Origin: an uncultured Lachnospiraceae bacterium
GTDB taxonomy: Bacteria > Bacillota > Clostridia > Lachnospirales > Lachnospiraceae
NCBI GenBank assembly: GCA_900318375.1
Contig: ONKG01000026.1
Location: 23,882 to 87,881, forward strand
Length of the DNA: 64,000 bases
Direction: 5' to 3'
Both the position numbers and the translations under genes were made by a program. The notes beneath the pieces were generated by a model, which saw only the letters and a program-made list of their open reading frames with translations, was not told the origin of the DNA and did not search any database. Positions 29,020-50,278 of this stretch are shown here, in pieces. How positions within the stretch are numbered: the stretch's first letter is position 1; every line of letters starts with the position of its first letter.

Positions 29020-30192
29020 TTATTTCTTCAGTACTCCGTCTTTGGTAAAGTGATAGATTTTGCCGCCGATCCACTGGCGTCCGGTCAGCATATGACCGTC
29101 TTTCACGCTGAAATAGTATTTCCTGCCTCCGATCATCTGCCAGGCAGTCAGCATGGCGCCCGACCTGGGGTGGAAATAATACTTCCTGCCCTTGATAGTC
29201 TGCAGGCCGGTCAGCATATGGCCGTCTTTGGGACTCAGATAATATTTTTTATTGCCTATTTTCTGCAGACCGGTCAGCATGCGGCCGTCTTTGACACTGA
29301 AATAATACCATTTATTTTTGATCTTCTGCCAGCGGGTCAGCATATAACCGTTCCCGTCATAAAAATAGGTTTTTCCGGAAGACTTGTACCAGCCTGTATG
29401 GTATTTCCCGGTCTTTTTCAGACCCAGGTATTCGGCGATGGCCGCGGCGTCCGCCTGGCCGAGTCGTTTAAGAAAGGCCTCGTTCTGAAGCTTTGCGGCA
29501 TCGCTTTTATTGGACATAAATGCATGTTCCACGATCACGGCAGGAATTTTGTATTTCTTATTATAAAAAAGAACGCCGTAGTAGTCTCCCTTTTTGCCGG
29601 CGGGATCGCGGCGGCTCCGGTCATCACTGTATTTGGTGCGGGCGCCTCCGTTGACAAGACCGCATGCGCCGATCCGTCTCGCCAGGATCCGTGCGAGATT
29701 TTTGGACTGTCCGCCCACGTGGGCATAAAAGCTGTCGTTCTGATGATAGACACGGACTCCCCTGGTCGCCGGGCTCTCGCCCTCGCCGTAGGCATTATTG
29801 TGGAGGCAGACAAAGATATCCGCATTGTTCTTTTTGGCTATATAGCTGCGGGCCTGAAGATCCGCAGAGGTTCCGCCGCTGCTGACAGCGCGGTCCGAAG
29901 TCCTGGTCATGACCACTTTGACATTTGCGTATGTATTCAGCTCCGCCTGACAGTATCGGGCAATCTTTAAGTTGAGCACCTTTTCCTGCATGCCGTAGTA
30001 GCAGGCACCCTTTTCCCAGCCGCCGTGGCCCGGGTCCAGTACTACAACCCTGGTCTTCGCGGCAGCATCGGCGGTCATTGCTGTGGGGAGCATCCCCGGT
30101 ACAGGGCAGATTCCCGCCGCGCAGAGCATGATCACCGCGGCCAGCAGAAATGACACCATCCTTCTTGGAAGCACCTTTTTTTCTTTATACAT
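29020..30192 (-). CDS. Secreted N-acetylmuramoyl-L-alanine amidase with cell-wall-binding repeats
   Basis: 390 residues. A signal peptide (RRMVSFLLAAVIMLCAAGI) is followed by an Amidase_3 zinc domain: VVLDPGHGG, EKVLNLKIA, CLHNNAYGEG and catalytic IVEHAF. It cleaves the stem peptide from glycan strands. Residues 255-390 hold about six choline-binding-type repeats (GNKKYYLSPKDGHMLTGLQ), likely for wall anchoring. AAAGGGGAATTC sets the start at 30192. The repeats resemble those of the two L,D-transpeptidases at 47.7-49.8 kb. Confidence 0.93.
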   Translation of the reverse strand: MYKEKKVLPRRMVSFLLAAVIMLCAAGICPVPGMLPTAMTADAAAKTRVVVLDPGHGGWEKGACYYGMQEKVLNLKIARYCQAELNTYANVKVVMTRTSDRAVSSGGTSADLQARSYIAKKNNADIFVCLHNNAYGEGESPATRGVRVYHQNDSFYAHVGGQSKNLARILARRIGACGLVNGGARTKYSDDRSRRDPAGKKGDYYGVLFYNKKYKIPAVIVEHAFMSNKSDAAKLQNEAFLKRLGQADAAAIAEYLGLKKTGKYHTGWYKSSGKTYFYDGNGYMLTRWQKIKNKWYYFSVKDGRMLTGLQKIGNKKYYLSPKDGHMLTGLQTIKGRKYYFHPRSGAMLTAWQMIGGRKYYFSVKDGHMLTGRQWIGGKIYHFTKDGVLKK

Positions 30193-30281
30193 GAATTCCC
30201 CTTTATGTACTCTTTCCGATCTGCCGGAGTCCGGCAGCACGCATGCATCGTCCCATGATCAAGGCTCCCCCGTCCTGATCA

Positions 30282-34158: not shown

Positions 34159-37100
34159 TTATTCCGCCGGTGTTTTCTCCTCCAGATCCTGTGCTTTCTG
34201 CATTTCTCTGGAAAGCGTGGAGAAGAGCTGTGCTGTATCGATGGGTTTTCTCAGGCAGGCATTCATCCCTGCTTCGAAGCATCTCTGTTCATTGGAGGGT
34301 TCAATATCCGCCGTCAGAGCTACGATCGGAATCGTTTTTGCGTCCTGGAGCGAGCTCCTGCGTATTGCCTTAGTCGCCTCCAGTCCGTCCATGATCGGCA
34401 TCATGACGTCCATCAGGACTGCCTGGAAGTGATAGGGGCCGTTGTTCTCATACATCTGGACAGCCTCTTCCCCGTCCCTGGCAAGCTCCGCATGCACACC
34501 GAGAGTCTCAAGGATTTTGATGACAACTTCGGCGTTGAGAGTGTTGTCCTCCGCAACAAGGACATTTTTCCCGTAGAGCAGACGTCCCTCAATGGTGGAA
34601 CTGCGGCGGCTCTGGGTGCGGATCTGATCCGGCGAGGCCAGGTCATATTCGAGAGTCACGATAAATGTCGTGCCCCGTCCCAGTTTGCTGTGGCAGGTAA
34701 TGGTGCCGCCCAGAAGATCGACCAGGTTCCGGCAGATATAGAGGCCCAGGCCTGTGCCGTCGCGCATACTGTTGTCAGAGCCGTTCTCCTGCTCGAAGGG
34801 CAGGAACATTTTCTGCTGAAATGCATCACTGATCCCGCGGCCGGTGTCGCGGATCGTGTAGGTGTGGTTTGCCTGATGGTCTTTATAGAAAACATTCGCT
34901 TCAAAAGCGACTCTTCCGCCTGCCGGTGTGAACTTGATGGCGTTGCCCAGAAGGTTGACGATGATGCGGGTCACATGTTCTGTGTCCATCATGACCACAC
35001 GATTCTCACATCCCTCGATCCTGGTCTGGAGATAGAGTCCTGCGGCATTGGCCTTCTGCGCGATGATCGCCACCGCCTCTTCCAGGACCTCCTGCTCGCG
35101 TACCGCTGTACTGACGCTGACCACCTTGCCCGCGTTGATGCGGCTGGTCTCCAGCACTTCATCGATCAGGCTGGTCAGATAGTGGGTTGAAGAGAGCACT
35201 TTCTCCATATTGTCCCGGGCGCCGTCAGGCAGCCCTTTTTCACGCAGTGAGAGCTGGGCCAGACCCTTGATGGCTGTCAGAGGCGTCCGCATGTCATGAC
35301 TCATATGAGATAGGAATGCCTCTTTCTCCTGTCCGGACTTGACAGCCGCGCGGAGTGCCTTTGTCATCTCCTCGATCTGTGTCTTGTCTCCGATCTGCTG
35401 CGTCGTATCGATAAAGGTCAATACCAGTCCGCTGACATAGCCCTTGTCTCTTTTCACGGGTTTATCATCAGCAGGGGCTTTCTGGTCCCGCCTGCCGGCT
35501 CCGGCCATAGTTGCGGAAATATCCGCGGGCGCGCTGTTTCCGCTTATAATGCTCTCGCCGCTTTCGGAACCGCTTCCGGCACCTGTTCCGGAAACCACAC
35601 GGAATCCGCCGACAGGCACTTCGGTCTCGTCGCTGTCCAGAGGCTTTTTCTCATGGGTCCGGTAAGGCGCTATACGCACAAGATAGGTCTTGCCCGCAAC
35701 CGAAGCGCATGCCAGTTCCACAGGCTGCATAGTCTGCAGGACCTGATGGCAGAGCGCAATGAGATCAACGGTCGCAAAGTGATAGGCTATGTAACGGAGA
35801 GAACGTCCGACATCATGCTCCGCGACACTGAATTCATCCGCAATATATTCGGTAAATTTCCGCACATTGAGCTTTCGGTCGACCATGACGATACCGACCA
35901 TGGTCGTGGCGAGGAAGTTTGCCATGTCGTCATTGACAGACGCCAGCTCTCCGACCTTGGCCTGGTACTCGGAGTTGACCGTATAGAGTTCCTCATTGAC
36001 GGATTGCAGCTCTTCATTTGAGCTCTGCAGTTCTTCATTTGCCGTCAGCAGTTCCTCGTTTGCTGCCTGAAGCTCTGCGTTGACGGACTCCAGTTCCGTG
36101 ACTGTATGGCTGAGGTTATCCTGGGTGACATGAAGATCTTTTTCCAGATCCGCGATGCGCTGCGCAGCTGCTGTGTCGATGTTGTAGTGCTCCATGTCAA
36201 CAGGCTTGTCCGCCTCCCGGGAAGGCCTGAGGAATGCGATCGCCGTTATGCCCGTATCTGCTCCGATTTTGTCACTGATAGGCTGGGCGACGAGCGAAAT
36301 ATATTCCGGCGATTCGCCGATCTGCACAGGGATTTTGTCATAGGCCACACGTCCGTGCAGTTCCCTTGACTCCTTGAGCGCCTTGGAGACCGCGATCCGC
36401 AGATCTGCCCTGATCAGCGAGAAAATATCCAGCGTGACATTTCCGACCGGTATCGTGATAAAGTCTCCGCACTTTCCGTAAGAATGGCAGAGTTCATTTT
36501 TCTCGTCGACAAGAACACAGGCCGGCATCAGAAGTTCCAGCACGCGGGTATCTATCTCTCCTGCCGGGAAATGCGAATCAGTGTCAAAGCTGTCCCCCTT
36601 GTAGTGCTGGGGCATCAGCTGGCTCTCGATTCCCTGCAGAGAGTAGGTGATGTGTTCATGGGACGGAGTGCGCCCGGACCTGTTGTGCACAAAGATCTTT
36701 TCATTGGGGCAGAGCACACGGAAGACGTCGTCATAATCGATGACGGATTCCGAGCGGCCCAGAAACAGATATCCGCCGTCGTTGAGCGCCATATGGAAGA
36801 TGGCGAACAGATTTCTCTGCAGGATACTCTGGAAATAGATCAGAAGATTTCTGCAGCTGACCAGATCCAGCCTGCCGAAGGGCGGATCCTGGAAAACATT
36901 ATGTTGCGCAAACACGATCATCTTCCTGATATCGTGATTGACCGTGTAGCGGTTTCCTTTTTTCGTGAAAAAGCGGGACAGGCGGGTGATCGTCACATCC
37001 TCCTGGATGCTGTCTCCATAGATGCCGCGGCCGGCAACCGCGATGGAATCCGCGTCCAGATCCGTGGCGAAAATCTTGATATCGCGGCGAAGCCCCATTT

Positions 37101-38097
37101 CCTCCATGGCTTCCGCAAAAATGATTCCTATGGAGTAGGCTTCCTCGCCGGTGGAACAACCCGCTACCCAGATACGGATCTGGTCGGAGGGACGGGCATT
37201 GCGCAGAAGATCCTTGACGACACGTTCCTTGAGAACATCAAAATAATCCTGGTCGCGGAAAAAGCTGGTGACACCGATCAGGACCTCTTTGGCCAGAAGC
37301 CTCGCCTCCTCCGGATTGTTGGACATGTAATTCACATACTCGCGGAGATTGCGGTTATGGGTGACCACGATCCTTCGCTCGATGCGGCGCAGGACAGTTG
37401 TCTGCTTATAATAGGAGTAGTTTACATTTGTGACGTTTTTCAGAATCGAAAAGACCTGTGACAGAAGATCCCCGTCCGAGAGCTGGAGTCTCTGCCCGGC
37501 GTCTGCCATGGAACGGGAGATGTGCGCCATCTCTCGGGCGATACTGTCGGGATTCAGGATCAGATCCACAAAGCCCGTCGCAATCGCGCTGCGGGGCATG
37601 CCGTCAAACTTGGCGCTCTCCGGAGACTGGGCGATGATCATGCCGTTGCGCTCCTTGATGGAGCGGATTCCGTTGGTTCCGTCCGAGCCCGTGCCCGAAA
37701 GGATCATGGCGACGGCGCGGTTCTCATAGGACTTTGCCAGGGAACGGAAAAAGACATCGATCGGATGATTGATATGCTGATGATTATATTCGTGAAGATG
37801 CAGGACATCCTCTTCAATGACCATATTGTATTTGGGAGGAAGCATGTAGACTGTATTTTTGCGCACATGCATTCCCTCCTGGACCTCCACCACGGGCATT
37901 GTGGTGTATTTGCCCAGAATATCCGCCAGAAGACTGCGATGATCCGGGGACAGATGCTGTATGACTACAAAGGCCATCCCCGTATCGACAGGAAGGAAGG
38001 TCAAAAACTGCTGAAGCGCCTCCAGACCGCCTGCTGAAGAACCGATTCCGACTACACAGCCGGGACGTTCACTTTTTTTGCTCTTGTCTATTTTCAT
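34159..38097 (-). CDS. CheB-CheR-PAS-histidine kinase-receiver hybrid protein
   Basis: 1312 residues combining five modules. Methylesterase CheB at 15-190 (GIGSSAGG, QHLSPDH, SGTGSDGT); methyltransferase CheR at about 210-470 (GVTSFFRDQDYF, AGCSTGEEAYS); a coiled coil of repeated NEELQS-type units at about 660-720; a PAS-like region; a histidine kinase with SHMSHDMRTPLTAIKG (His near 929), LLGNAIKFTPAGG and DTGRGI; and a receiver with Asp near 1231 in MDVMMPIMDGLEA and KPID. It senses an unknown signal and probably relays phosphate internally. No other chemotaxis gene is in the window. Start 38097 follows GGAAGGAAGTT. Confidence 0.92.
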   Translation of the reverse strand: MKIDKSKKSERPGCVVGIGSSAGGLEALQQFLTFLPVDTGMAFVVIQHLSPDHRSLLADILGKYTTMPVVEVQEGMHVRKNTVYMLPPKYNMVIEEDVLHLHEYNHQHINHPIDVFFRSLAKSYENRAVAMILSGTGSDGTNGIRSIKERNGMIIAQSPESAKFDGMPRSAIATGFVDLILNPDSIAREMAHISRSMADAGQRLQLSDGDLLSQVFSILKNVTNVNYSYYKQTTVLRRIERRIVVTHNRNLREYVNYMSNNPEEARLLAKEVLIGVTSFFRDQDYFDVLKERVVKDLLRNARPSDQIRIWVAGCSTGEEAYSIGIIFAEAMEEMGLRRDIKIFATDLDADSIAVAGRGIYGDSIQEDVTITRLSRFFTKKGNRYTVNHDIRKMIVFAQHNVFQDPPFGRLDLVSCRNLLIYFQSILQRNLFAIFHMALNDGGYLFLGRSESVIDYDDVFRVLCPNEKIFVHNRSGRTPSHEHITYSLQGIESQLMPQHYKGDSFDTDSHFPAGEIDTRVLELLMPACVLVDEKNELCHSYGKCGDFITIPVGNVTLDIFSLIRADLRIAVSKALKESRELHGRVAYDKIPVQIGESPEYISLVAQPISDKIGADTGITAIAFLRPSREADKPVDMEHYNIDTAAAQRIADLEKDLHVTQDNLSHTVTELESVNAELQAANEELLTANEELQSSNEELQSVNEELYTVNSEYQAKVGELASVNDDMANFLATTMVGIVMVDRKLNVRKFTEYIADEFSVAEHDVGRSLRYIAYHFATVDLIALCHQVLQTMQPVELACASVAGKTYLVRIAPYRTHEKKPLDSDETEVPVGGFRVVSGTGAGSGSESGESIISGNSAPADISATMAGAGRRDQKAPADDKPVKRDKGYVSGLVLTFIDTTQQIGDKTQIEEMTKALRAAVKSGQEKEAFLSHMSHDMRTPLTAIKGLAQLSLREKGLPDGARDNMEKVLSSTHYLTSLIDEVLETSRINAGKVVSVSTAVREQEVLEEAVAIIAQKANAAGLYLQTRIEGCENRVVMMDTEHVTRIIVNLLGNAIKFTPAGGRVAFEANVFYKDHQANHTYTIRDTGRGISDAFQQKMFLPFEQENGSDNSMRDGTGLGLYICRNLVDLLGGTITCHSKLGRGTTFIVTLEYDLASPDQIRTQSRRSSTIEGRLLYGKNVLVAEDNTLNAEVVIKILETLGVHAELARDGEEAVQMYENNGPYHFQAVLMDVMMPIMDGLEATKAIRRSSLQDAKTIPIVALTADIEPSNEQRCFEAGMNACLRKPIDTAQLFSTLSREMQKAQDLEEKTPAE

Positions 38098-38277
38098 AAC
38101 TTCCTTCCCCGGACCGTCTCCCGGTCCGCCGGATGAATACATGTCTGTACAGTTAACTGTGACAATACAATGTGCTGCGGGACTTTCTCCGCAGTATATC
38201 CTTAAAGGGAACAAGTCTGCCTGATCTGTATTGTTTGTATTGTTGTTTTCCTGCTGTTAATGTGTTTCCTTTTCCAT

Positions 38278-38814
38278 CTATTTCTCTGAGTCTTTTTGTT
38301 TCTCTGATGCAGCGCGGACTGTCCGGATGATTCTCGCGACGACCTCTTCGACCTCCCCGCTTCCTTCCCGCACGATCAGATCGGCGTATTTTTCATACAG
38401 CACCGTCCTCTCATCGTAGAGGTCACGGAGGGTCTGCCCCTCCCGGAGTACCACTCCCCGCTGACGGATGTTCCGGAGCCTTTTCTGTATGACATCAAAA
38501 TCCACTTGCAGATAGATGACTGCGCCGATATCCCGCAGATGCTTCATCGCCTCTTCCCCGTATACGGCGCTGCCGCCGGTCGCGATGACACTGCGCGATG
38601 CCCGGATCGAAGCATTTACATCATTTTCCACCCGGATAAATCCTTCAACACCCTTTTCCAGAATAATTTCCCTGAGGCGCTTTCCCTCTCTTCTCTGGAT
38701 GAGCAGGTCTGAATCGATAAAATCAAATCCCAGGACTTTCGCCAGGATGACACCGACAGTGCTTTTCCCCGATGCCGGCATTCCGATCAATATCAGATTG
38801 TCTTTTTTAGCCAA
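38278..38814 (-). CDS. aroK: Shikimate kinase
   Basis: 178 residues. Phosphorylates shikimate on the route to aromatic amino acids. The P-loop is GMPASGKST (11-19), followed by DSDLLIQRREGKRL (shikimate-binding aspartate), IRVENDV, and ATGGSAVYGEEAM. I use TTG at 38814, preceded by GAGGAGAG; the frame is open to 38937 but that part has no family similarity and no site. The conserved RPLL lid arginine segment is altered (RQRGVVLREGQ), so weak or divergent shikimate affinity is possible. Confidence 0.85.
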   Translation of the reverse strand: MAKKDNLILIGMPASGKSTVGVILAKVLGFDFIDSDLLIQRREGKRLREIILEKGVEGFIRVENDVNASIRASRSVIATGGSAVYGEEAMKHLRDIGAVIYLQVDFDVIQKRLRNIRQRGVVLREGQTLRDLYDERTVLYEKYADLIVREGSGEVEEVVARIIRTVRAASEKQKDSEK

Positions 38815-39311
38815 TGTCAGCTCTCCTCTCCTTCCGGCAGCAGGCCGCAGCAAACAAATATTGACGCGGCGGTTTGCCCCCGGCATGACGGGACACTGCC
38901 ACTGCTTAAGTATACCACAAGTAGAATCCCTCAACATGTAAATAATATTGATTTATTAAGATTTAAAGAGAATTTTATCCTGCCGCGCGCAGGACCTGGG
39001 GCAGGTCCTGATGCTTGAAGGGGATGCCGGAAGCCTGCCGCCCGGCCCTCTCTATGCCCCCGGCTTTGGTCCCGGCTTTGGTTCCCGGCTTTGGTTCCCG
39101 CCCCCTCTTCCAGTGAAACAGAGTTGTTTCTTTCATGCGCAACTCGTGGTATACTGTAAACGCCTGAATATCCGGAGACTGCGGCCCGAAGACATTCCGG
39201 ACCCGCTCCATTAATCCGAACCTTCATAAAGCCGAAACTCAATGAATCTGACAGTATGGAAACAGTCCCTGCGCTTTCAGGAATACTGTTTTTATAACAA
39301 GAGGTACAATT
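38815..39311. other. Gap before the amino-sugar cluster
   Basis: No convincing gene. Holds three tandem copies of CGGCTTTGGT(T)CC at about 39060-39098 and an extended -10 box near 39147. A 78-codon minus-strand frame is open but compositionally odd. Confidence 0.5.
39147..39155 (+). promoter_or_regulatory. Extended -10 promoter candidate for the amino-sugar cluster
   Basis: TGGTATACT, a TGn plus TATACT box, 157 bases before the aminotransferase start. No good -35 hexamer accompanies it. Confidence 0.45.
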
Positions 39312-40445
39312 ATGATTTCTTTTAATGTTCCCCCTTATATCGGAACAGAACTTGATTACGTAAAACAGGCTATCGACGCGCACAAGATCTGCGGCGACGG
39401 GCAGTTTACCAAAAAATGCCATGCATATCTGGAAGAGCGCTTTAATGCGCAGAAGGTATTGCTGACAACCAGCGGCACCACTGCCCTGGAAATGGCCACG
39501 ATTCTCTGCGGCCTTGAGAAAGGCGACGAAGTCATCGTCCCGAGCTTTACCTTCTCCAGTACTGCCACCGCGATCGTACTGACCGGCGCGACACCTGTCT
39601 TTGTCGATATCCGCCCGGACACCATGAATATCGATGAGACAAAGATCGAGGCAGCGATCACGGAGAAAACCCGCGCGATCATGGCCGTTCATTACGCCGG
39701 TGTCGCCTGCGAAATGGACACCATTATGGACATCGCCGCCCGTCACAATCTCAAGGTGATCGAAGACGCGGCACAGGGTGTCATGTCCTCCTACAAAGGA
39801 CGCGCTCTGGGCACGATCGGCGATTTCGGCTGCTACTCTTTCCATGAGACCAAAAACTACTCCATGGGAGAGGGCGGGGCGCTTCTCATCCGCGACCCCG
39901 AACACAATGACGACGCAGAGATCCTGCGCGAAAAAGGCACCAACCGCGCACGGTTTTTCCGCGGCCAGGTGGATAAATACACCTGGGTGAACTATGGCAG
40001 CAGCTATCTGCCCAGTGATATGAATGCCGCCTATCTCTGGGCCCAGCTCCAGGAGGCAGACAGGATCAATGATAACCGTCTCGCTATCTGGAATACCTAT
40101 TCCCAAGCCTTTGCGCCCCTTGCCGCCGCCGGCAGAATCGAAGTTCCGACCATACCTGAGGGCTGCGTCCACAACGCGCATATGTATTACATCAAGCTTC
40201 GGGATCTCGATGACCGCACTGCCTTCATCAAGTATCTGAAGGATAAGGGTATCGTCGCTGTCTTCCACTATGTCCCTCTCCACAGCGCGCCGGCCGGCCG
40301 CAAATTCGGCCGTTTCCACGGAGAAGACCGCTATACCACCAGCGAAGGAGACCGTCTGGTCCGTCTGCCTCTCTATTACGGGCTGACACCGGAAGACCAG
40401 GAGTACGTCATCGCTACTGCCATGGAATACCTCAACAAGGCCTGA
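39312..40445 (+). CDS. rffA: dTDP-4-amino-4,6-dideoxygalactose transaminase-like enzyme (RffA/WecE)
   Basis: 377 residues, PLP-dependent. From recalled family sequences it matches RffA/WecE along its whole length: FNVPPYIGTELDYV, CGDGQFTKKC, VDIRPDTMNIDETKIEAAIT, HYAGVACEMDTIM, EDAAQGVMSSYKGRALGTIG, FSFHETKNYSMGEGGA with PLP lysine Lys181, REKGTNRARFFRGQVDKYTW. It should convert dTDP-4-keto-6-deoxyglucose to the 4-amino-4,6-dideoxygalactose nucleotide. No RmlA/B genes are in the window. AAGAGG precedes the ATG. First gene of a six-gene plus-strand cluster. Confidence 0.92.
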   Translation: MISFNVPPYIGTELDYVKQAIDAHKICGDGQFTKKCHAYLEERFNAQKVLLTTSGTTALEMATILCGLEKGDEVIVPSFTFSSTATAIVLTGATPVFVDIRPDTMNIDETKIEAAITEKTRAIMAVHYAGVACEMDTIMDIAARHNLKVIEDAAQGVMSSYKGRALGTIGDFGCYSFHETKNYSMGEGGALLIRDPEHNDDAEILREKGTNRARFFRGQVDKYTWVNYGSSYLPSDMNAAYLWAQLQEADRINDNRLAIWNTYSQAFAPLAAAGRIEVPTIPEGCVHNAHMYYIKLRDLDDRTAFIKYLKDKGIVAVFHYVPLHSAPAGRKFGRFHGEDRYTTSEGDRLVRLPLYYGLTPEDQEYVIATAMEYLNKA

Positions 40446-40586
40446 CAAGGCCGGCGTACTCTCTGCACACCGGGACGGACCCTGCTCATCCGGCAGCCGC
40501 CTTTTCCGGAATCCTGCGGCAGGGACCGGAACCGACGCACTCTCCCTGCGCACAATCTATTGAATCATTCATTCGAGAGGAAGACT

Positions 40587-41657
40587 ATGCCTTCTGGACA
40601 GAAAAAGAAACTGATCAGCTTTATCATCCCCTGCTATGCAAGTGAGGGGTCCGTGGGTCTTGTCATCGACGAGATCCGCGAAGTAGTTGCTCAAAAGCCC
40701 GACTTTGACTATCAGATCGTCGCTGTCAATGACTGCTCCCCCGACAACGTGCTCGGAGTCCTGCGCGGCATCGCAGCCAAAGACCCCAGGGTCGCCGTCA
40801 TCGATCTGGCCAAAAACGGCGGGCGCCACAATGCGCTCATGTGCGGCTGTCACTATGCCTCGGGCGACTACGTTGTCTTCATCGATGACGACCAGCAGTG
40901 TCCCGCGGACCGGCTCTGGGATCTTCTCGATCCTCTTGTAAACGGCGATTACGACGTCTCGATCGCCCGCTACCGCAAGAAGACCCAGTCGGGATTCAAA
41001 AATTTCGGATCCGCAGTCAATGACCGCGTCGCCACCTGGCTTCTGGGCAAAGATCCCAACCTGAAATTCTCAAACTTCTCCGTGATGAAGAAATTCGTCA
41101 AGGATGAAGTTGTCAAATATACGAATCCCTATCCCTATCTGTCCGGCCTGATGCTCCGCGCGACACGCCGCGTCATCAATGTGGATATGGAGGAGCGCGT
41201 CCGCACCATAGGTGTCGGACATTACAGTTTTAAAAAATCCTTTGCCCTCTGGATGAACAGCTTCACGGCCTTTTCTGTCAAGCCCCTGCGCCTGGCCACC
41301 GGAATCGGCGTCCTCTGGGCAATCCTCGGTGTCATCATGGGTCTCCGCACCGTGATCAGAAAGCTCCTCAACCCGAGCATCCCGCTGGGCTACAGTTCCA
41401 CGATGGCCGTCCTTCTCTTCTCCACGGGAATGATCATGTTCATGCTCGGTCTGATCGGAGAATACATAGGGCGGATATACATATCGCTGAACAACTCCCC
41501 CCAGTTCGTCATCCGGGAAAAAATCAATCTCCCCGATCCCCGTTCAGAATACGGATGGGCTGCAGGGCAGGATCCCCGCGCGGTTTCACGCAGACCGGCA
41601 TACCCGCAGCATACTCTGCCCCATACGGAACAGCACGACTACAGATTTAAGGAGTAG
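40587..41657 (+). CDS. Polyisoprenyl-phosphate glycosyltransferase (GT2, ArnC/GtrB/DPM1-like)
   Basis: 356 residues. The cytosolic GT-A domain has SFIIPCYASEGS, VNDCSPDNV, NGGRHNALMCGC and FIDDDQQCP. Two C-terminal membrane helices (about residues 230-250 and 270-300) place it with enzymes that load one sugar onto undecaprenyl phosphate at the inner face. By context the sugar would be the amino sugar made by the upstream enzyme. ATG at 40587 has GAGAGGAAG before it; an upstream TTG at 40560 is less likely. 141 bases after rffA. Confidence 0.9.
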   Translation: MPSGQKKKLISFIIPCYASEGSVGLVIDEIREVVAQKPDFDYQIVAVNDCSPDNVLGVLRGIAAKDPRVAVIDLAKNGGRHNALMCGCHYASGDYVVFIDDDQQCPADRLWDLLDPLVNGDYDVSIARYRKKTQSGFKNFGSAVNDRVATWLLGKDPNLKFSNFSVMKKFVKDEVVKYTNPYPYLSGLMLRATRRVINVDMEERVRTIGVGHYSFKKSFALWMNSFTAFSVKPLRLATGIGVLWAILGVIMGLRTVIRKLLNPSIPLGYSSTMAVLLFSTGMIMFMLGLIGEYIGRIYISLNNSPQFVIREKINLPDPRSEYGWAAGQDPRAVSRRPAYPQHTLPHTEQHDYRFKE

Positions 41658-41665
41658 ATTCATTC

Positions 41666-42982
41666 ATGTCAGATTCTGTTATTCATTCCGCCTCTCCGTC
41701 TCTTTCCTCACAAGACCGGAGTTCCTCTAAAAAAAAGCTGCTGGTCATCGGAGCGGGCGATTTCCAGCTTCCTCTGGTGCAGCAGGCTGCAAAGACCTGC
41801 GAGGTCCTTCTCGCCGCACCGGTGATCTCCCCCGCCTTTGACCCCTACATCTCCGACCGCCTGATCGTCGATGTAAGGGACGAAGAATCGATCCTCTCTT
41901 TCGCGCAGGCGCACAAAATCGACGGAGTCATTACAGACCAGACCGATATCGCCGTCCGCAGTGTCGCCTATGTCGCCGAAAAAATGGGCCTTCCGGGCAT
42001 CGGATATGAGACCGGCCTTCTCTTCACCGACAAGAGCCGCATGCGCAGCCGTCTGGCTGAGCTGGGGCTCCCTCTTCTCGCCAACAGGACTGTCTCCTCA
42101 GTCGAAGAGGCAGTCGCTTTTTATAGGGAACTGGTCAGTTCTGCCGGCCGGAGCACAGACCCTGTCCGCGTCATCATCAAGCCTCTCGATACCCAGGGAA
42201 GCCGGGGAGTCCAGGTCTGCGCGGGCGAACAGGAGATCCGGGACAAATATCCCGAGGCTGCCCGCTGGTCCGGCAATCACGAAGTCATCATTGAGCATTT
42301 TGCGACCGGCCGCGAGTTCGTCGTGGAGTCCCTCGTCCTGGATCATAAATACAAGACTCTCTGTATCGGAGATACGCTCTATTTCGATATCCCCGATGCT
42401 TTTGCCGCCAAGAGCCGTATCTTCCCCACAACGGCAGACGATGCCCTCCGCGGCAAGGTGCTGGATCTGGATGAGAAGATCATCACCGGCTTCGGCCTGA
42501 CCCAGGGTATCACCCACAGCGAATATATAATGGACGGAGACGAGGTCTACCTCATCGAGACAGCTGCCCGCGGCGGCGGGGTCTTCATCTCCTCTGACCT
42601 GATCAGCCTTTCCAGCGGTCTGCACACCGAACAGTTCCTGGTCGATATGGCCCTCGGACAGCAGAAGGAAATGCCCCTCATCCTGCCTCAGCAGTGTTTC
42701 TGCGGCTACATGGCCTTCTATCTGCCCATCGGACGAGTCATCCGCGCCGACGGCATCGAAGATGTCCTGGCCTTTCCCTTTGTCCACCGCACCCAGCTCG
42801 GAAAGCTGCATGCCGGCATCGAAAATCACGAGGGAGCGACCGACAAGACCTCCCGCCTCGCCGTCATTGTCTCAGGTGACACCCGCGAAGAGCTCATGGA
42901 GCACATGGCCCAAGTCCGCTCCACACTGAAAATCGATATTGAAGCCCCGGACGGTTCGATCATCGGTCCGATCTGGGAATAA
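41666..42982 (+). CDS. ATP-grasp ligase (carboxylate-amine ligase type)
   Basis: 438 residues. KKLLVIGAGDFQLPLVQQA is the N-terminal Rossmann-like domain; ATP-grasp loops are RVIIKPLDTQGSRGVQV and the metal-binding YLIETAARGGGVF. The last 100 residues carry a small beta domain. Such enzymes form amide bonds using ATP. Within this cluster the simplest idea is acylation of the 4-amino group with an amino or hydroxy acid, before or after lipid loading (inference). AAGGAG precedes the ATG, and the gene starts 8 bases after the glycosyltransferase stop. Confidence 0.82.
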   Translation: MSDSVIHSASPSLSSQDRSSSKKKLLVIGAGDFQLPLVQQAAKTCEVLLAAPVISPAFDPYISDRLIVDVRDEESILSFAQAHKIDGVITDQTDIAVRSVAYVAEKMGLPGIGYETGLLFTDKSRMRSRLAELGLPLLANRTVSSVEEAVAFYRELVSSAGRSTDPVRVIIKPLDTQGSRGVQVCAGEQEIRDKYPEAARWSGNHEVIIEHFATGREFVVESLVLDHKYKTLCIGDTLYFDIPDAFAAKSRIFPTTADDALRGKVLDLDEKIITGFGLTQGITHSEYIMDGDEVYLIETAARGGGVFISSDLISLSSGLHTEQFLVDMALGQQKEMPLILPQQCFCGYMAFYLPIGRVIRADGIEDVLAFPFVHRTQLGKLHAGIENHEGATDKTSRLAVIVSGDTREELMEHMAQVRSTLKIDIEAPDGSIIGPIWE

Positions 42983-43002
42983 ACGATACGGAGGTATTGC
43001 TC

Positions 43003-43380
43003 TTGCTCAAGCACTTTCTTGACAGGCGGCGCAATGTTTTCCTGCTCGCCGCCTTCGCTGTATTTATGGAGAGCCTGACTTCTCCCTGCCTGAAAATAGG
43101 ATCTCAGCGATATGAGCCCTTTTCCGCGGGGTATTTTTTCTGGTTCGGCCTGGCCGTCGTCATCCTCGGCATCTATGCGGTGTGCTGGCAGCTCATCCTG
43201 GAGCGCATTCCCCTGACAACCGCCTATCTGAGGCGCGGCTTCAGCTATATCCTGCTCTTCGTCTGGTCCACACTGATCTTTCATGAGACCATCACTCTCA
43301 AACAGATCATAGGCATTGCCGTGATCTCCCTGGGAATGGTGATCAGTGTTTCCGACGAACACGGCAGAAAAAAGAAATAA
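43003..43380 (+). CDS. Four-helix SMR/EamA-like membrane protein, subunit 1 (ArnE/F-like)
   Basis: 125 residues with four predicted membrane helices, half an EamA transporter: FWFGLAVVILGIYAVCWQLILERIPLTTAYL and FHETITLKQIIGIAVISLGMVIS, the terminal motif common to SMR-type proteins. Start TTG at 43003, 8 bases after GGAGG. Together with the next gene it resembles the ArnE-ArnF heterodimer that flips undecaprenyl-phosphate-aminoarabinose. 20 bases after the ATP-grasp gene. Confidence 0.8.
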   Translation: MLKHFLDRRRNVFLLAAFAVFMESLTSPCLKIGSQRYEPFSAGYFFWFGLAVVILGIYAVCWQLILERIPLTTAYLRRGFSYILLFVWSTLIFHETITLKQIIGIAVISLGMVISVSDEHGRKKK

Positions 43381-43464
43381 ATAATCCGTTCAGGCCCCGA
43401 ATTCCGGGTCCATCCTTACAGGCATAGTTCCGAATGGTCTGAAACATAAAGAGGTATCCTGCAA

Positions 43465-43821
43465 ATGTCCAACCTTCTGACTCCTCAGGTCTGCTACGCA
43501 GCCGCCATCATCGGCGCTTTTATCACAGCTCTGAGCCAGATTCTGCTCAAGACTCAGGCAAATACGACCGGTGAAAAGGGATTTTTCAGCAAATTCCTCA
43601 ATATCCGTGTCATTGTTTCGTACGGCCTTCTTTTCCTTACACTGGCCATCAATCAGGTCGCCCTGCGCTTTGTCCCTCTCTCGGTCATGCCCTGCATCAC
43701 AGCCACAAGCTTTGTGTGGGTCTTCGTGCTGGGCGCTCTGATCCTGAAGGAAAAGGTATCCCCGAGAAAAGTCCTCGGTGTCGCTGTCATCATCGCAGGC
43801 GTTGTGATCTCCAGACTCTGA
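43465..43821 (+). CDS. Four-helix SMR/EamA-like membrane protein, subunit 2 (ArnE/F-like)
   Basis: 118 residues, four membrane helices: AAAIIGAFITALSQILLKTQA, VSYGLLFLTLAINQVALRFVPLSVMPCITA and LKEKVSPRKVLGVAVIIAGVVISRL. It has the canonical SMR/EamA ending. Distinct in sequence from its neighbour, consistent with an asymmetric dimer working as a lipid-linked sugar flippase (inference from context). An AAAGAGG site precedes the start by about 9 bases. Confidence 0.82.
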   Translation: MSNLLTPQVCYAAAIIGAFITALSQILLKTQANTTGEKGFFSKFLNIRVIVSYGLLFLTLAINQVALRFVPLSVMPCITATSFVWVFVLGALILKEKVSPRKVLGVAVIIAGVVISRL

Positions 43822-43855
43822 TCTTCCGACTAAGATTCCCCGAAAGGAATACCCC

Positions 43856-45505
43856 ATGTACGCTCTTTTAAAAGAATTCTCCGAAAAGATAACGAGCAGG
43901 AAATCCTACTGGATCCCCCTGCTCTTTTACACATTCGGGGCTTACGGCTTCTCCATGCTCAACCGCACAGTGGGCGCCGATGATCTGGCCACCTTCAAAT
44001 ATGTAGACGAAACCGTCTGGCTCTCGGAGCTCCGCTGGGGCGCCGTCCTGTGGAAAAAGCTGTTTTCCTTCGGAGACTGTGTTCCTTTCCTGGATAAATT
44101 TCTGTCCGTCTGCTTCCTGATGCTGGCCGGCACCGCCTTTGCCTGCCTCTTCTATCTGATGAACGGAAAAAGAGACCGCGTATGGCTCTACACCGTCGCG
44201 GCCTGCTCATTTATCACTTACCCGATCATCTGCGAGATCTGGGAATTTACCTGCGGAGGCACGATCATAGTCCCGGGTGACTATTTCTGCTGTTTCATGC
44301 TCCTGCTGATGATCCTGACCGGAAGTACGGAAACCGTCCCTGCACAGGCCCGCACGCTCCTGACAGCCGGCGTGCTGCTGACGCCCGTCATATCCAGCGC
44401 GGAATCCATCGCTCCGGTCTATGTGACAGCCGTCCTGATCATCCTGTTTTACCGCTATTGCGTCCGCAGGACCGCACGGGGCAGGAAGACCGCCTGGTTC
44501 TTTGAAGGTGTCCGCTTTGCAATCCCCCTCTTCATCGCCTTTGTCCTCCGCCTTGTCATCGGCTACGGGATCATGGGCATCATGGGGCTCAAATTCAAGC
44601 ACACAGGAGATACCAGCATAGGCTGGAAACACGGAGAAATCGGCAGCCAGCTTATCGCCCTCTTCAAGGGAATCCTGATCAACTACGGCGCCGCCGCACT
44701 GATCAATCTCCCCATCACGATCTTTATCGTATGTACCGTGCTTTTCGCTGTCCGCTGCTTTATCCTGGCTTTCAAAAACAGGTCTCCTCTTTCCGTTTTT
44801 CTCGGAATCTGCATCGGCATATCTCTCTTTTTGATTTCTCTCATACAGGGAACCGTGATGCACTACAGGACAGCCATCACCCTGATGATCTTCTGCGCCT
44901 TCGTCTTTTATCTGCATGCCGAAAGCTTTTATGACTGGATCAACAGCGGCATCCTGAAACACAAGCGCTTCCGCGTACTTCTGGGCCGCTGCGGCCTCGT
45001 CCTGCTGCTCTTCATCACCTGGCGGCAGGCCGCCCATCTTCACCGCTTCCTCGCGCTCAACAATCAGCGCTACGACAACGAGGCGGTCGTCATGCATCAG
45101 ATCGGGTACAGACTGACCGACGAGTTCGATACTGCCAAACCCATGATCTTTGTGGGAAATTTCGACAGCGGTGACGCCTTCTACTACGCCACCCACGACG
45201 ACGGCAAGAGCTGGAACGGTCAGCTCTTCCGCAAGATCCGCCACAAGATCGACGGCACTGAGCTCTGGAAGTCCCCCATGATCGTCCAGACCACTGTCTC
45301 CTCCGCCATCGACTGGTACCACCTGGAATTTGACGGAGAGCTCATGAAAGACTTCCTGGCCTACTACGGATACGACTTCGATATCATGGCTCTCTCCCGC
45401 AAAGAACTGGAGCCCTATAACGAAAAGGCAAAAGAACTCGGTATGACAACCTACGATATAGTCGACTGCGGAGATTACATACTCATCTGCATAGGAGAGC
45501 TGTAA
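43856..45505 (+). CDS. Membrane glycosyltransferase of the GtrII-like (Glucos_trans_II) type
   Basis: 549 residues, about ten membrane helices and a C-terminal extracytoplasmic domain of about 150 residues. Early features fit GT-C enzymes: an acidic pair in NRTVGADDLATFKY within the first loop, and later GTVMHYRTAITLM. Homologues such as GtrII move a sugar from undecaprenyl phosphate onto a surface polymer on the outer face. This would be the last step of the pathway encoded upstream. GAAAGGAAT precedes the ATG. A strong terminator follows. Confidence 0.8.
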   Translation: MYALLKEFSEKITSRKSYWIPLLFYTFGAYGFSMLNRTVGADDLATFKYVDETVWLSELRWGAVLWKKLFSFGDCVPFLDKFLSVCFLMLAGTAFACLFYLMNGKRDRVWLYTVAACSFITYPIICEIWEFTCGGTIIVPGDYFCCFMLLLMILTGSTETVPAQARTLLTAGVLLTPVISSAESIAPVYVTAVLIILFYRYCVRRTARGRKTAWFFEGVRFAIPLFIAFVLRLVIGYGIMGIMGLKFKHTGDTSIGWKHGEIGSQLIALFKGILINYGAAALINLPITIFIVCTVLFAVRCFILAFKNRSPLSVFLGICIGISLFLISLIQGTVMHYRTAITLMIFCAFVFYLHAESFYDWINSGILKHKRFRVLLGRCGLVLLLFITWRQAAHLHRFLALNNQRYDNEAVVMHQIGYRLTDEFDTAKPMIFVGNFDSGDAFYYATHDDGKSWNGQLFRKIRHKIDGTELWKSPMIVQTTVSSAIDWYHLEFDGELMKDFLAYYGYDFDIMALSRKELEPYNEKAKELGMTTYDIVDCGDYILICIGEL

Positions 45506-45540: not shown

Positions 45541-45584
45541 GAGAGCGGTTTGAGTCACGCAGGACTCAAACCGCTCTCTATTTT
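45541..45584. terminator. Bidirectional terminator closing the amino-sugar cluster
   Basis: A perfect 16-bp stem GAGAGCGGTTTGAGTC with 6-base loop, followed by TATTTTC on the plus strand and GTTTGTTTTG on the minus strand. Confidence 0.88.
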
Positions 45585-47670: not shown

Positions 47671-48708
47671 TCAGTATACGATAACACGGGTATTCTTCGG
47701 TACTACCTGATGGATATACTTGGCATCCTCCAGTCTCAGGCGGATGCAGCTGTTGGACCTCATCTTGCGGAGAGTGCTGTCCTTGGGAGAATGTGTGTAG
47801 GGATTTCTGCAGCCAAGTCTGTAGAGAATCGAGTGGAAATAATTGCCTGCACTGATTCTGGTGGTATAGAAGACTGTGGAACCGCTGAAATCCTTGTAGC
47901 CATAAGCCTTGGAGCTCTTGTGGTCAAGACGGAAGCTTCCGGACGGGGACGGTGTGGATCTCTTTCCGATGGTGCAGGGCATTCCTCTGCGCACTACAGA
48001 CCAGTTGCCTTTAGATCCCTTGTAGATATTGATCTCGTAATTCTTTTTATTGACAAGGATCAGATAACGGGTGCTGCTGCTGTAGCCCTGTGCCTTCTTG
48101 TCCATTCCGTGGACATCCGTAACTGCACCGGTAGCTCCGATCTTATATCCGTCAATAGTGGTATTCGTCGCGATAGAGCCGTCAGCCTTGACATAATACA
48201 TGGCATTATTGACAAAGAACCAACCCTTTGTGCGGCGCTGTTTGCCATCGTTGGAATTGAAATAATAGAGCTTTTTGTTGATGGTGATAAAGCCGCTCGC
48301 ACGGGCACCGGCCTTCTGAGGGTGGAGATAGTAATAATCGTTGCCGATCTTCCTGTAACCGGTCAGGATCTGGCCGACGCCGATTCCCTTCGCGCCGCTC
48401 TTCACGCTGGCATAGTAAGTGGCGTTATTGATCTTAAACCATCTGCAGCAGAGATTGCCCTCTTTGCTGAAACCAAACAGCTTATTCTCTATTTTCTTGA
48501 CACAATTCTTGTAATACTTGCCGCTTGCGTAATAGTATCTGTAATACTTGCCGACCTTGACCCAGCCTGTTTTCGTTACAGCCTGTGTGCCAACGGTGTC
48601 CGCCGCTGCTGTTTCAGCTTCCGCGGGTGCTGTAAATGCCATGACCGGCATGCAGGACAGCATCAGGATCATAAGGAAAGCAAACAGCATGGTAAATTTT
48701 TTCTTCAT
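47671..48708 (-). CDS. Secreted L,D-transpeptidase-like protein with cell-wall-binding repeats (copy 1)
   Basis: 345 residues. A signal peptide (LFAFLMILMLSCMPVMA) is followed by cell-wall-binding repeats (GWVKVGKYYRYYYASGKYY, GNDYYYLHPQKAGARASGF) to about residue 205, then a YkuD domain from RYLILVNKKNYEINIY. The catalytic cysteine is Cys321 in RSNSCIRL and the upstream histidine His292 in YFHSILYRLG. The usual SHGC is replaced by SNSC, so the neighbouring histidine and glycine are both missing. It would crosslink peptidoglycan or attach proteins if active. Start ATG 48708 after GGGAGGT; a TTG at 48717 is less likely. Confidence 0.85.
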   Translation of the reverse strand: MKKKFTMLFAFLMILMLSCMPVMAFTAPAEAETAAADTVGTQAVTKTGWVKVGKYYRYYYASGKYYKNCVKKIENKLFGFSKEGNLCCRWFKINNATYYASVKSGAKGIGVGQILTGYRKIGNDYYYLHPQKAGARASGFITINKKLYYFNSNDGKQRRTKGWFFVNNAMYYVKADGSIATNTTIDGYKIGATGAVTDVHGMDKKAQGYSSSTRYLILVNKKNYEINIYKGSKGNWSVVRRGMPCTIGKRSTPSPSGSFRLDHKSSKAYGYKDFSGSTVFYTTRISAGNYFHSILYRLGCRNPYTHSPKDSTLRKMRSNSCIRLRLEDAKYIHQVVPKNTRVIVY

Positions 48709-48768
48709 AAAACTCAATACCTCCCTGTTGCGGTTCAGTTTAACAGGTTCAGATTCACAGAGTAAAGA

Positions 48769-49806
48769 TTACCATACAATAACTCTGGTGCCACGTTTCA
48801 TGTTGTCCCAGATAAACTTCGCATCTGCCAGAGGCAGGCGGATGCAGCCGTTGGACTTGTTCTTGCCGAGAGTCGCATCCTTAGGAGAGTTCGTGTAGGG
48901 ATTTGAGCAGCCCAGCCTGTAAAGGACTGAGTGGAAGAAGTTGCCTGCATTGATTCTGAACGCATAGAAAGCTGTAGCGCTCTTGAAATCCTTGCGGCCG
49001 TATTTTCCGTTCTTTGTGACCTTCAGAGAAAGTTTGAAATTACCGGACCTTGTAGGAGTGGCCTTCTTGCCGATCGTGCAGAGGATATTTCTCTTGATAT
49101 TGACCCAGTTTCCTTTGGATCCCTGGTAGAAGTTGACAAGGTGTCTGCTCTTGTCGACGAGGATCAGATAACGGGTGCTGCTGCTGTAGCCCTGTGCCTT
49201 CTTGTCATATCCGTAGGGGTCCGCAACACGGCCGTTTGCGCCGATCTTGTAACCGTCGATCGTTTTGTTGGTGGCGATGGAGCCGTCAGCCTGCACATAA
49301 TACATGAAATTGCCGACGAAGAACCAGCCCTTTGTGCGGCGCTGCTTGCCGTTGGCCGGACTGAAATAGTAGAGCTTAGCGCCGACTTTGACAAATCCGC
49401 TTGTACGGGCACCGCTCTTCTGGGGATCCAGATAGTAATAGTCATTGCCGATCTTTCTGTAGCCGGTCAGGATCTGGCCGACGCCGATTCCCTTCGCGCC
49501 GCTCTTCACGCTGGCATAGTAAGTTACATTATTGATCGTAAACCATCTGCAGCAAAGATTACCCTTCGGGCTGAAGCCGAACAGCTTATTTTCGATTTTC
49601 TTGACGCAGTTTTTATAATATTTGCCCGCTGCGTAATAATATCTGTAATACTTGCCGACCTTGACCCAGCCTGTACGACTGGCCTGTACTTCCACGGTAT
49701 CATCTGCTGCTGCCGCATCTTTGCCTGCCGGTATAGTAGCTGCCATAACCGGCATACATGACAGAATCATGATTACGACAAACAGCATCGCGAGTTTCTT
49801 TTTCAT
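48769..49806 (-). CDS. Secreted L,D-transpeptidase-like protein with cell-wall-binding repeats (copy 2)
   Basis: 345 residues, exactly the length of the next gene downstream and alike along its whole length: signal peptide, repeats GWVKVGKYYRYYYAAGKYY, then a YkuD domain (RYLILVDKSRHLVNFY). The catalytic Cys321 lies in KSNGCIRLPLADA, with His292 in FFHSVLYRLG. Here only the histidine of SHGC is replaced by asparagine. Clearly a tandem gene duplication; this copy is closer to a working active site. AAGGAGG immediately before the ATG. Confidence 0.88.
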   Translation of the reverse strand: MKKKLAMLFVVIMILSCMPVMAATIPAGKDAAAADDTVEVQASRTGWVKVGKYYRYYYAAGKYYKNCVKKIENKLFGFSPKGNLCCRWFTINNVTYYASVKSGAKGIGVGQILTGYRKIGNDYYYLDPQKSGARTSGFVKVGAKLYYFSPANGKQRRTKGWFFVGNFMYYVQADGSIATNKTIDGYKIGANGRVADPYGYDKKAQGYSSSTRYLILVDKSRHLVNFYQGSKGNWVNIKRNILCTIGKKATPTRSGNFKLSLKVTKNGKYGRKDFKSATAFYAFRINAGNFFHSVLYRLGCSNPYTNSPKDATLGKNKSNGCIRLPLADAKFIWDNMKRGTRVIVW

Positions 49807-50278
49807 GGTATCCTCCTTGCTTTGTAAGTATGGACATGCAAAATGCACGCCGTGCTGTTGTTCATGATATAAAATCAAATTGTTCGACTCATGGGTATCT
49901 TATATAATACTACGAAATACTCATTTTTTCTACACAAATTTTTCACATTTTCATGAGGTATTTGTAACCTTTTTACCAAGGCACAGAATCCACGCGATTT
50001 TTCCTGTGTAAAATATTTCCAATATTTCATATTGACAGCAAGGCTTCAGCGTCGAAACACTTACATGCGTGACGCTGCTCTTTGCTCCGTGCTTTGAGCG
50101 TCCCGAAAAGGATAAAGGCGGCTCTGGTTTTCTCTTCGGAGGCTCCTCGGGCTTTGATTTGTTAAAGAAATCCTGCAATTAACAATTTTATGTAATTAAC
50201 TTATTAAAAAATCCAACAGTATAATCATTTTCAGTTAATTAATCCAGTACGGCATAGCAAACAAAGGAGGAGCTTGTC
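49807..50278. other. AT-rich divergent promoter region
   Basis: No gene seen. Has a TATAAT at 50220-50225, 54 bases before the BspA-like gene, with a poor -35. AGCGTC...GACGCT near 50047-50078 can form a hairpin. Promoters for both divergent genes should lie here. Confidence 0.45.

Follow-up and report, generated by a model that had tools for sequence, protein, structure and literature searches.

A lipid-linked amino-sugar cassette with an ATP-grasp ligase in a Lachnospiraceae genus, predicted to make an N-acylated surface decoration

The window analysed here, a 64,000-nucleotide stretch of contig ONKG01000026.1 from an uncultured Lachnospiraceae bacterium, carries six plus-strand genes (39312-45505) that together are predicted to make and export an N-acylated form of the amino sugar 4-amino-4,6-dideoxygalactose (Fuc4N) as a surface decoration. 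The probability of this reading as a whole is put at about 0.55. Considerably more secure is its core, in which lipid-linked Fuc4N is exported and transferred outside the cell; that the ATP-grasp protein of the cassette is a ligase acting on the Fuc4N moiety is moderately favoured.

In the proposed pathway RmlA and RmlB, encoded elsewhere, would make dTDP-4-keto-6-deoxyglucose, which RffA would aminate to dTDP-Fuc4N. The ATP-grasp enzyme would form an amide between the 4-amino nitrogen of Fuc4N and the carboxyl group of an amino acid or comparable acid, at the nucleotide-sugar stage or once the sugar is on its carrier. A family 2 glycosyltransferase (GT2) would load the sugar onto undecaprenyl phosphate, a pair of small multidrug resistance (SMR) proteins would flip the lipid-linked sugar across the membrane, and a GtrII-like protein (GtC) would pass it to a polymer of the cell surface, for which a wall glycopolymer is the likeliest candidate. 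An unlinked PaaK-like adenylating ligase would act alongside the ATP-grasp enzyme and probably contribute one more acyl group. Families, order, conservation and co-occurrence of the cassette genes are direct observations; from them we infer the amino-acid substrate, the acylated nitrogen, the order of steps, the acceptor and the phenotype. The suggestion in the first-pass annotation that the sugar would be charged or zwitterionic and could alter peptide resistance or phage binding belongs with these latter points.

Gene content and sugar supply

The features of the cassette are as follows.

39147-39155, plus strand: extended -10 promoter element TGGTATACT, recognised by eye
39312-40445, plus strand: rffA/wecE, dTDP-4-amino-4,6-dideoxygalactose (Fuc4N) transaminase, 377 amino acids (NCBIfam, PDB)
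40560-41657 (TTG start) or 40587-41657 (ATG start), plus strand: GT2, polyprenyl-phosphate glycosyltransferase of GtrB/ArnC type (Pfam, PDB)
41666-42982, plus strand: ATP-grasp carboxylate-amine ligase, L-amino-acid-ligase-like, 438 amino acids (PF13535, fold)
42997-43380, plus strand: SMR1, ArnE/ArnF-like half-transporter and putative flippase subunit, 127 amino acids (NCBIfam scores)
43465-43821, plus strand: SMR2, ArnE-like half-transporter and putative flippase subunit, 118 amino acids (NCBIfam scores)
43856-45505, plus strand: GtC, outer-face transferase of the GtrII family and GT-C type, 549 amino acids (PF14264 in orthologues, hydropathy)
45541-45578, both strands: 16-pair terminator-like stem (terminator scan), with plus-strand tail TATTTTCAAT

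The open reading frames occur in the order rffA, GT2, ATP-grasp, SMR1, SMR2 and GtrII-like, as described in the first-pass annotation of this DNA, with gaps of 114 (or 141), 8, 14, 84 and 34 bases by their coordinates. For GT2 the ATG start is likelier than the TTG. The first five genes match the Pfam families DegT/WecE, Glycos_transf_2, ATP-grasp_4 and, twice, EamA/SMR. The genes had also been placed between an extended -10 box and a strong terminator. The stem is indeed the strongest terminator-like site, supplying two of the 11 scan entries (6.5 entries expected in shuffled sequences). The -10 element, however, is visible by eye and absent from the promoter scan list, which requires a -35; that scan gave 5 hits in the region against 4.8 expected in shuffles, which is no excess.

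The transaminase is the best-defined protein of the set. It reaches 630 bits on NF008687 (cut-off 375) and 626 bits on TIGR02379 (cut-off 435), and aligns with PDB 4piw at 580 bits over residues 1-374, including HETKNY, the motif of the pyridoxal phosphate lysine. By these scores RffA is an equivalog-level WecE, in keeping with the RffA/WecE-type assignment made earlier. Because it is a WecE equivalog, the cassette sugar should be dTDP-Fuc4N and not aminoarabinose; the model for the UDP-aminoarabinose (UDP-Ara4N) aminotransferase gives only 187 bits, and the Arn-type sugar suggested earlier is not retained. The window's own genome (3.9 Mb, 82% complete, 4.7% contaminated) encodes RmlB at C85 (500 bits) and RmlA at C54 (470 bits), both over their cut-offs, and on these matches can supply dTDP-4-keto-6-deoxyglucose. 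The earlier statement that the cassette holds every step of the pathway is too strong, because RmlA, RmlB and the companion PaaK-like ligase lie elsewhere in the genome. Among related loci (denoted L; genomes are denoted G), RmlA is found inside the cassette in L069, L094 and L098, RmlA and RmlB stand directly before GT2 in L019, and RmlB lies just behind the cassette in L068.

GT2 matches PF00535 (E 3e-25), and its closest solved structures are PDB 5ekp (sll0501, which we take to be GtrB; E 9e-27) and the ArnC-type 9hwj (E 3e-25), as expected of the ArnC/GtrB type to which it had been assigned. Hydropathy indicates two C-terminal hydrophobic segments. Its best NCBIfam match, below the cut-off, is PgfS.

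Conservation of the cassette in related genomes

Two sets of loci were compared, which share four genomes/loci. A scan of contigs of named genomes with the ATP-grasp protein yielded 17 loci. GT2 adjoins the ATP-grasp gene in 16 of these, rffA adjoins these two genes in 11 (in L021 and L022 it is 7-8 kb off, on the opposite strand), and the SMR pair is present in 11. Three loci can be read only in part: L013 and L017 end 147 and 644 bases past the ATP-grasp gene, and L015 starts at GT2. L017 shows a lone ATP-grasp gene; the G631 contig taken as its counterpart has gtC-rffA-GT2-SMR-SMR ~27 kb away. In the genus of the window the ATP-grasp protein occurs in 27 of 62 genomes (E<=1e-60). Flanks were read for 19 loci besides the window; all 19 have rffA and a GT2 gene directly beside the ATP-grasp gene, and in 18 the flank includes the SMR pair. 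In L050 these two genes come after a PaaK-like gene, as is visible in the longer stretch L069. Homologues of the six genes do therefore keep company, as the first-pass annotation had supposed, and because the arrangement is kept in related genomes it is not due to chance. The adjacency of GT2 and the ATP-grasp gene persists at ATP-grasp identities as low as 44%, with the gene order changed in L023. Beyond the genus the ATP-grasp protein is rare: elsewhere in the family it was found in three of 199 genomes (E<=1e-40), all at 30-35% identity, and in other genomes of the class in one of 390 (E<=1e-60). This last locus (L067), which belongs to a different family, carries ATP-grasp and PaaK-like genes and, near them, an ornithine-cyclodeaminase-like gene; its 19.9 kb contain no rffA, GT2 or SMR match.

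GT2 matches of at least 73% identity occur in 34 of the 62 genus genomes (two more at 46% were left out of the count), and in seven of these 34 no ATP-grasp was found. All seven are metagenome-assembled genomes (MAGs), 72-90% complete, in which absence is not proved; in six the GT2 neighbours were read on both sides with no ATP-grasp match. The genes present are rffA-GT2-RmlA-GtC in G588 and G641, GtC-rffA-GT2-SMR-SMR in G619 and G642, and rffA-GT2 in G585 and G638; in G639 GT2 is at the contig end. The ATP-grasp enzyme, treated earlier as part of the cassette, is present in the window but looks optional across the genus because it was not found in these seven genomes with sugar genes. An SMR pair accompanies rffA and GT2 in L095 and L096, two loci in which ATP-grasp was not found, and the pair therefore follows the sugar genes. 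On these comparisons the constant chassis looks like rffA and GT2, usually with the SMR pair or a GT-C transferase, and the ATP-grasp enzyme like an add-on providing an optional cap.

The same distribution bears on a very different function, in which the ATP-grasp enzyme produces a free dipeptide or other small compound for export by the SMR pair, the sugar genes being incidental context. The closest solved relatives of the enzyme do make dipeptides, the SMR family includes drug exporters, and L067 has the ATP-grasp gene with no sugar genes found nearby. However, the persistence of GT2 beside the ATP-grasp gene at 44% identity, even where gene order has changed, and the SMR pair with rffA and GT2 in L095 and L096 make this explanation very improbable.

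The ATP-grasp and PaaK-like ligases

The AlphaFold model of the ATP-grasp protein has a pLDDT of 86. A Foldseek search of the PDB places the L-amino-acid ligase 3vot first (E 3e-24), with 4dim, BacD and RizA after it; 4dim, third among the top fold matches, is titled phosphoribosylglycinamide synthetase. The sequence E-T-A-A-R aligns by profile with E-S-A-A-R of BacD, and an alignment of 22 homologues has 30 invariant positions, including K123, K172, E210, E217, E298 and R302. By sequence and model, then, the protein has the fold and conserved catalytic residues of an L-amino-acid ligase, although related ATP-grasp families match too. It resembles the L-amino-acid ligases (BL00235, BacD/YwfE, RizA) in the fold and the Glu/Arg motif, and differs in its identity to them of only ~18-20% and in its predicted acceptor, a sugar amine; its predicted reaction is acylation of Fuc4N at the 4-amino position. 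The LAL C-terminal domain 2 (PF18603) is below the cut-off in the window protein (E 0.0044) and matches the L023 paralogue at 6e-14. An unrelated metabolic enzyme was considered and set aside, the two other ATP-grasp matches of the window's genome (below) being of low identity and amino-acid ligases heading the fold list even though glycinamide ribonucleotide (GAR) synthetases and carboxylases follow.

Other copies of the ligase occur. The window's own genome has two further ATP-grasp matches (open frames of 1021 and 1076 amino acids), 25% and 23% identical to the cassette protein. Tandem ATP-grasp genes are found in L019-L022, the second copy being 42-43% identical to that of the window in L021/L022 and 21% in L019. 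Among three distant homologues, that of L024 (8908-10893) is fused to a cytidylyltransferase/CMP-sugar synthetase domain and lies beside NeuB and an Asp/Glu racemase, that of L025 (8405-10368) occurs together with an rffA-like gene and an Asp/Glu racemase, and a methyltransferase stands beside those of L025 and L026. By family matches these neighbours appear to be the company of amino sugars, in two cases also with an amino-acid enzyme, and L024 and L025 suggest acidic D-amino acids on amino sugars. Five genus matches (L054, L056-L059) have one TAA inside the aligned stretch, with an open frame of 407 amino acids; the alignment probably runs upstream of the start codon.

A PaaK-like adenylating ligase recurs with the cassette in relatives. 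It lies between the ATP-grasp gene and SMR1 in L011, L012, L014, L015, L016, L018 and L050/L069, and beside cassette genes in L021, L022, L023 and L040. It matches the PaaK structure 2y27 (E 5e-10) and falls far below the cut-off of TIGR02155. In the window's own genome the orthologue (59% identical) is unlinked, at C96:4328-5641 with a histidine kinase gene on one side and a rhomboid gene on the other, and has an SGSTG loop and a PNGKLR motif, presumably the marks of such a ligase. PaaK-like matches occur in 33 of the 62 genus genomes, all within the 34 with an orthologous GT2. Of the 27 genomes with ATP-grasp, 26 have a match at 58-66% identity to the ligase of L011 (partial in four: G592, G620, G630, G643), the other, G623 (77% complete), having no PaaK-like match; none of the 35 genus genomes without ATP-grasp has a match in this range (Fisher p 1e-16, not corrected for descent). 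Genomes with GT2 in which ATP-grasp was not found carry PaaK-like proteins of 51% (G588, G641) or 42-43% identity (G585, G638, G639, G642), or, in G619, only a shortened, TetR-fused relative. G631 groups with G619 by GT2 and by a TetR-fused PaaK relative, yet has ATP-grasp and a full ligase at 66%; it is an informative contrast, a single case in a MAG, and the place of its 66% ligase in the tree is an open fork. The ligase of L040, a locus with ATP-grasp, groups with the 42-43% kind, and the pairing of ATP-grasp with one PaaK-like type therefore holds within the genus only.

Six shortened matches (G585, G619, the second copy of G631, G638, G639 and G642), counted among the 33 and outside the 26, are 53-55% identical and cover residues 2 to 317-339 of the 439-residue query. 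The copies of G585, G631, G638 and G642, read whole, end before the C-terminal ligase part and have a TetR-like N-terminus, supported by PF14278 in the first of the four fusions, on which Pfam was run. Such a fusion is possibly a regulator sensing the acid or acyl-adenylate. These TetR-like/PaaK-like fusions, from four genus genomes, are:

L155, 1901-3499
L156, 2347-3969
L157, 1154-2755
L158, 1744-3477

The pairing raises the tentative possibility of a two-ligase capping module, in which the ATP-grasp enzyme would add an amino acid to the 4-amino group of Fuc4N and a dedicated PaaK-like enzyme would cap this amino acid with a terminal acyl group, no carrier protein being needed. Species with tandem ATP-grasp genes would perhaps place two amino acids on Fuc4N, and the module would be exchanged in and out of an otherwise constant chassis of lipid-linked Fuc4N. 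Alternatively the PaaK-like enzyme itself acylates lipid-linked Fuc4N, the ATP-grasp enzyme only preparing the acyl donor (an N-acyl amino acid or small amide). This is unlikely: its wider presence in the genus (33 of 34 genomes with orthologous GT2, against 27 for ATP-grasp) and the motifs of the window genome's copy, whose meaning we take as above, would suit such a role, but G619 yields only the shortened TetR-fused relative, L019, with its two ATP-grasp genes, shows no PaaK-like match over 21 kb, and none of the genes named at the Clostridioides difficile flagellin locus is PaaK-like.

That locus is the nearest precedent for acylation by the ATP-grasp enzyme. In type B flagellin the amino group of Fuc3N bears a glycine-alanine-taurine unit, according to excerpts of PMC5207245. 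Disruption of the ATP-grasp gene CDR20291_0245 (PF13535) is described in part of PMC5207246 as removing the terminal amino-acid-bearing sugar to leave the core trisaccharide alone, as does mutation of an ornithine-cyclodeaminase-like gene; the result fits acylation before transfer. Leg5GluNMe7Ac of C. botulinum, as cited in the same part of PMC5207245, is another amino-acid-acylated surface sugar. Compared by description only, the C. difficile system shares with the cassette an RmlB-derived, amino-acid-capped dideoxy-amino sugar and the need for a PF13535 ATP-grasp gene, and its ornithine-cyclodeaminase-like gene has a counterpart near the ATP-grasp gene of L067. It differs in its flagellin target, its 3-amino sugar and its FemAB-like protein, and no flippase or GT-C is named in the excerpts.

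Export, final transfer and significance

ArnE is the top-scoring NCBIfam model for both SMR proteins (SMR1: ArnE 41.2 bits, ArnF 33.9, EbrA 22.3; SMR2: ArnE 35.5, EbrA 25.0, ArnF 23.4). The ArnE/ArnF-like pair of the first-pass annotation thus stands as to ArnE; however, both proteins miss the curated ArnE and ArnF cut-offs (92 and 99 bits) and in SMR2 ArnF falls below EbrA. The two are 34% identical over 53 residues. Neither exceeds 25 bits on the Qac/Ebr models, which have cut-offs of 160 bits or more, so that ArnE outscores these models with all below their cut-offs. Quaternary-ammonium export was set aside on these scores and on the occurrence of the pair with rffA and GT2 where ATP-grasp was not found. 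GtrA is not among the listed family matches of the SMR proteins, which are EamA, SMR and ArnE, and they do not qualify as a GtrA/GtcA-type flippase. A glutamate in the first transmembrane segment of SMR1, presumably at the place of the EmrE glutamate, is kept in six of seven aligned sequences (absent in L023); it fits a proton-coupled SMR transporter as well as a flippase and decides nothing.

GtC has ~11 hydrophobic segments by hydropathy, and D42-D43 is invariant over nine sequences. The GtrII-like assignment is borne out in orthologues 78-79% identical (PF14264, E 4e-16 in L007 and 4e-14 in L010) and in homologues of L069 and L094, but the window's copy has no GtrII match even at E<=10, and a PF14264 search of the L096 homologue found none.

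In some relatives the final transfer is probably the task of a YfhO-type enzyme encoded next to the cassette. YfhO is directly upstream of rffA in L011 and L012, stands with a CDP-glycerol glycerophosphotransferase upstream of RmlA-RmlB-GT2-ATP-grasp-ATP-grasp in L019, and is on the opposite strand in L021 and L022. As YfhO is the outer-face enzyme of Bacillus subtilis lipoteichoic acid glycosylation (excerpts of PMC7389260), its nearness favours a wall polymer, by analogy the most likely acceptor. It is decidedly unlikely that the same chemistry instead places the sugar on a protein (flagellin, S-layer or adhesin). PgfS, the best NCBIfam match of GT2, is a protein glycosylation enzyme, and the best studied amino-acid-capped dideoxy-amino sugar found here sits on C. 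difficile flagellin. The three GT2-type transferases of that locus act in the cytoplasm, whereas the cassette has a putative flippase and an outer-face GT-C. A scan of cassette neighbours in relatives showed YfhO, a member of the teichoic-acid-polymerase family, LCP and wall hydrolases among them, but nothing flagellar.

Several points weigh against an N-acylated Fuc4N wall decoration. GAR synthetases and carboxylases also match the ATP-grasp fold well (E ~1e-20), and ATP-grasp ligases as a class accept a wide range of acids and amines. GT2, the ATP-grasp protein and the SMR proteins reach no NCBIfam cut-off, and the AlphaFold model of GtC, from four sequences, has a pLDDT of 36. To the seven genomes with no ATP-grasp found, and to L067, are added L019-L022, in which the SMR pair was undetected, with rffA undetected in the available DNA of L019/L020. 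A search of the window's own genome, 82% complete, for a teichoic acid polymerase (PF04464) gave none. That genome has separate YfhO genes at C135 and C94, with GT2-like genes nearby at C135, and other such systems therefore coexist in it. The reading as a whole rests on comparison of sequences and structures.

Each part of the cassette has a known counterpart. In Gram-negatives the Arn pathway uses a 4-aminotransferase, an ArnC-type GT2, an ArnE/ArnF pair and an outer-face transferase, with UDP-Ara4N as the sugar. The cassette has proteins like all four, but its sugar is dTDP-Fuc4N by prediction, its transferase is GtrII-type and an amide-forming ligase is added; family matches reveal no ArnA, ArnD or ArnT among the six proteins. 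The Fuc4N branch of enterobacterial common antigen uses WecE/RffA, the same transaminase by equivalog scores; the cassette differs in having no acetyltransferase family among its six proteins and in a sugar predicted to be single on the carrier. Closest in plan are the Gtr and CsbB-GtcA-YfhO systems, in which, according to excerpts of PMC7389260 and PMC8035078, a GT2 loads undecaprenyl phosphate, a small membrane flippase follows and a GT-C acts at the outer face; several relatives have YfhO close to the cassette. Unlike these systems, the cassette makes its amino sugar on site, has an N-acylating ligase by prediction, and has two ArnE-like SMR genes where they have GtcA/GtrA. By its families it appears to work like a three-component system with another flippase. 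The review PMC8035078 contains none of the words ArnE, SMR, EamA, EmrE and ATP-grasp, and a search of open-licence papers, mostly by title, found no account of this gene combination. As far as could be seen, neither the combination nor the paired ligases nor the on/off cassettes have been described before.

Some observations concern the surroundings. Near the cassette the window encodes two L,D-transpeptidases and an amidase with choline-binding-type repeats at 47671-48717, 48769-49878 and 29020-30240 (all minus strand), an amidase with such repeats precedes rffA in L069, and proteins resembling (by similarity only) the repeat-bearing protein of L099 lie near cassettes in L095-L098 and L100. 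LicD is near RmlB in L064, and the window's own genome has 33 PF19127 matches on ~11 open frames. Repeat proteins and LicD may point to a phosphocholine-bearing wall polymer. Upstream of the cassette a minus-strand frame (34159-38214) encodes a 1351-residue protein with, by eye, CheB/CheR-like, histidine kinase and receiver parts, adjoined by a shikimate kinase gene (38278-38937); similarly long minus-strand frames in L007 and L010 are set beside it by length and position alone.

Gram-positive lipid-linked single-sugar decoration is known for N-acetylglucosamine and galactose, among others, and the flippase proteins of B. subtilis and Listeria lipoteichoic acid glycosylation were unidentified before PMC7389260, by the excerpts of that paper. 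The cassette appears to join such decoration with an amino-acid-capped dideoxy-amino sugar, and its SMR pair is a candidate flippase for a Gram-positive sugar carrier. It also offers a defined enzyme pair, ATP-grasp and PaaK-like, and a natural set of cassettes with and without ATP-grasp in one genus. If the two-ligase module were true, related gut bacteria would exchange ligases and so alter the charge and shape of a single surface sugar, and Gram-positive walls would carry a non-ribosomal 'peptidyl-sugar' decoration.

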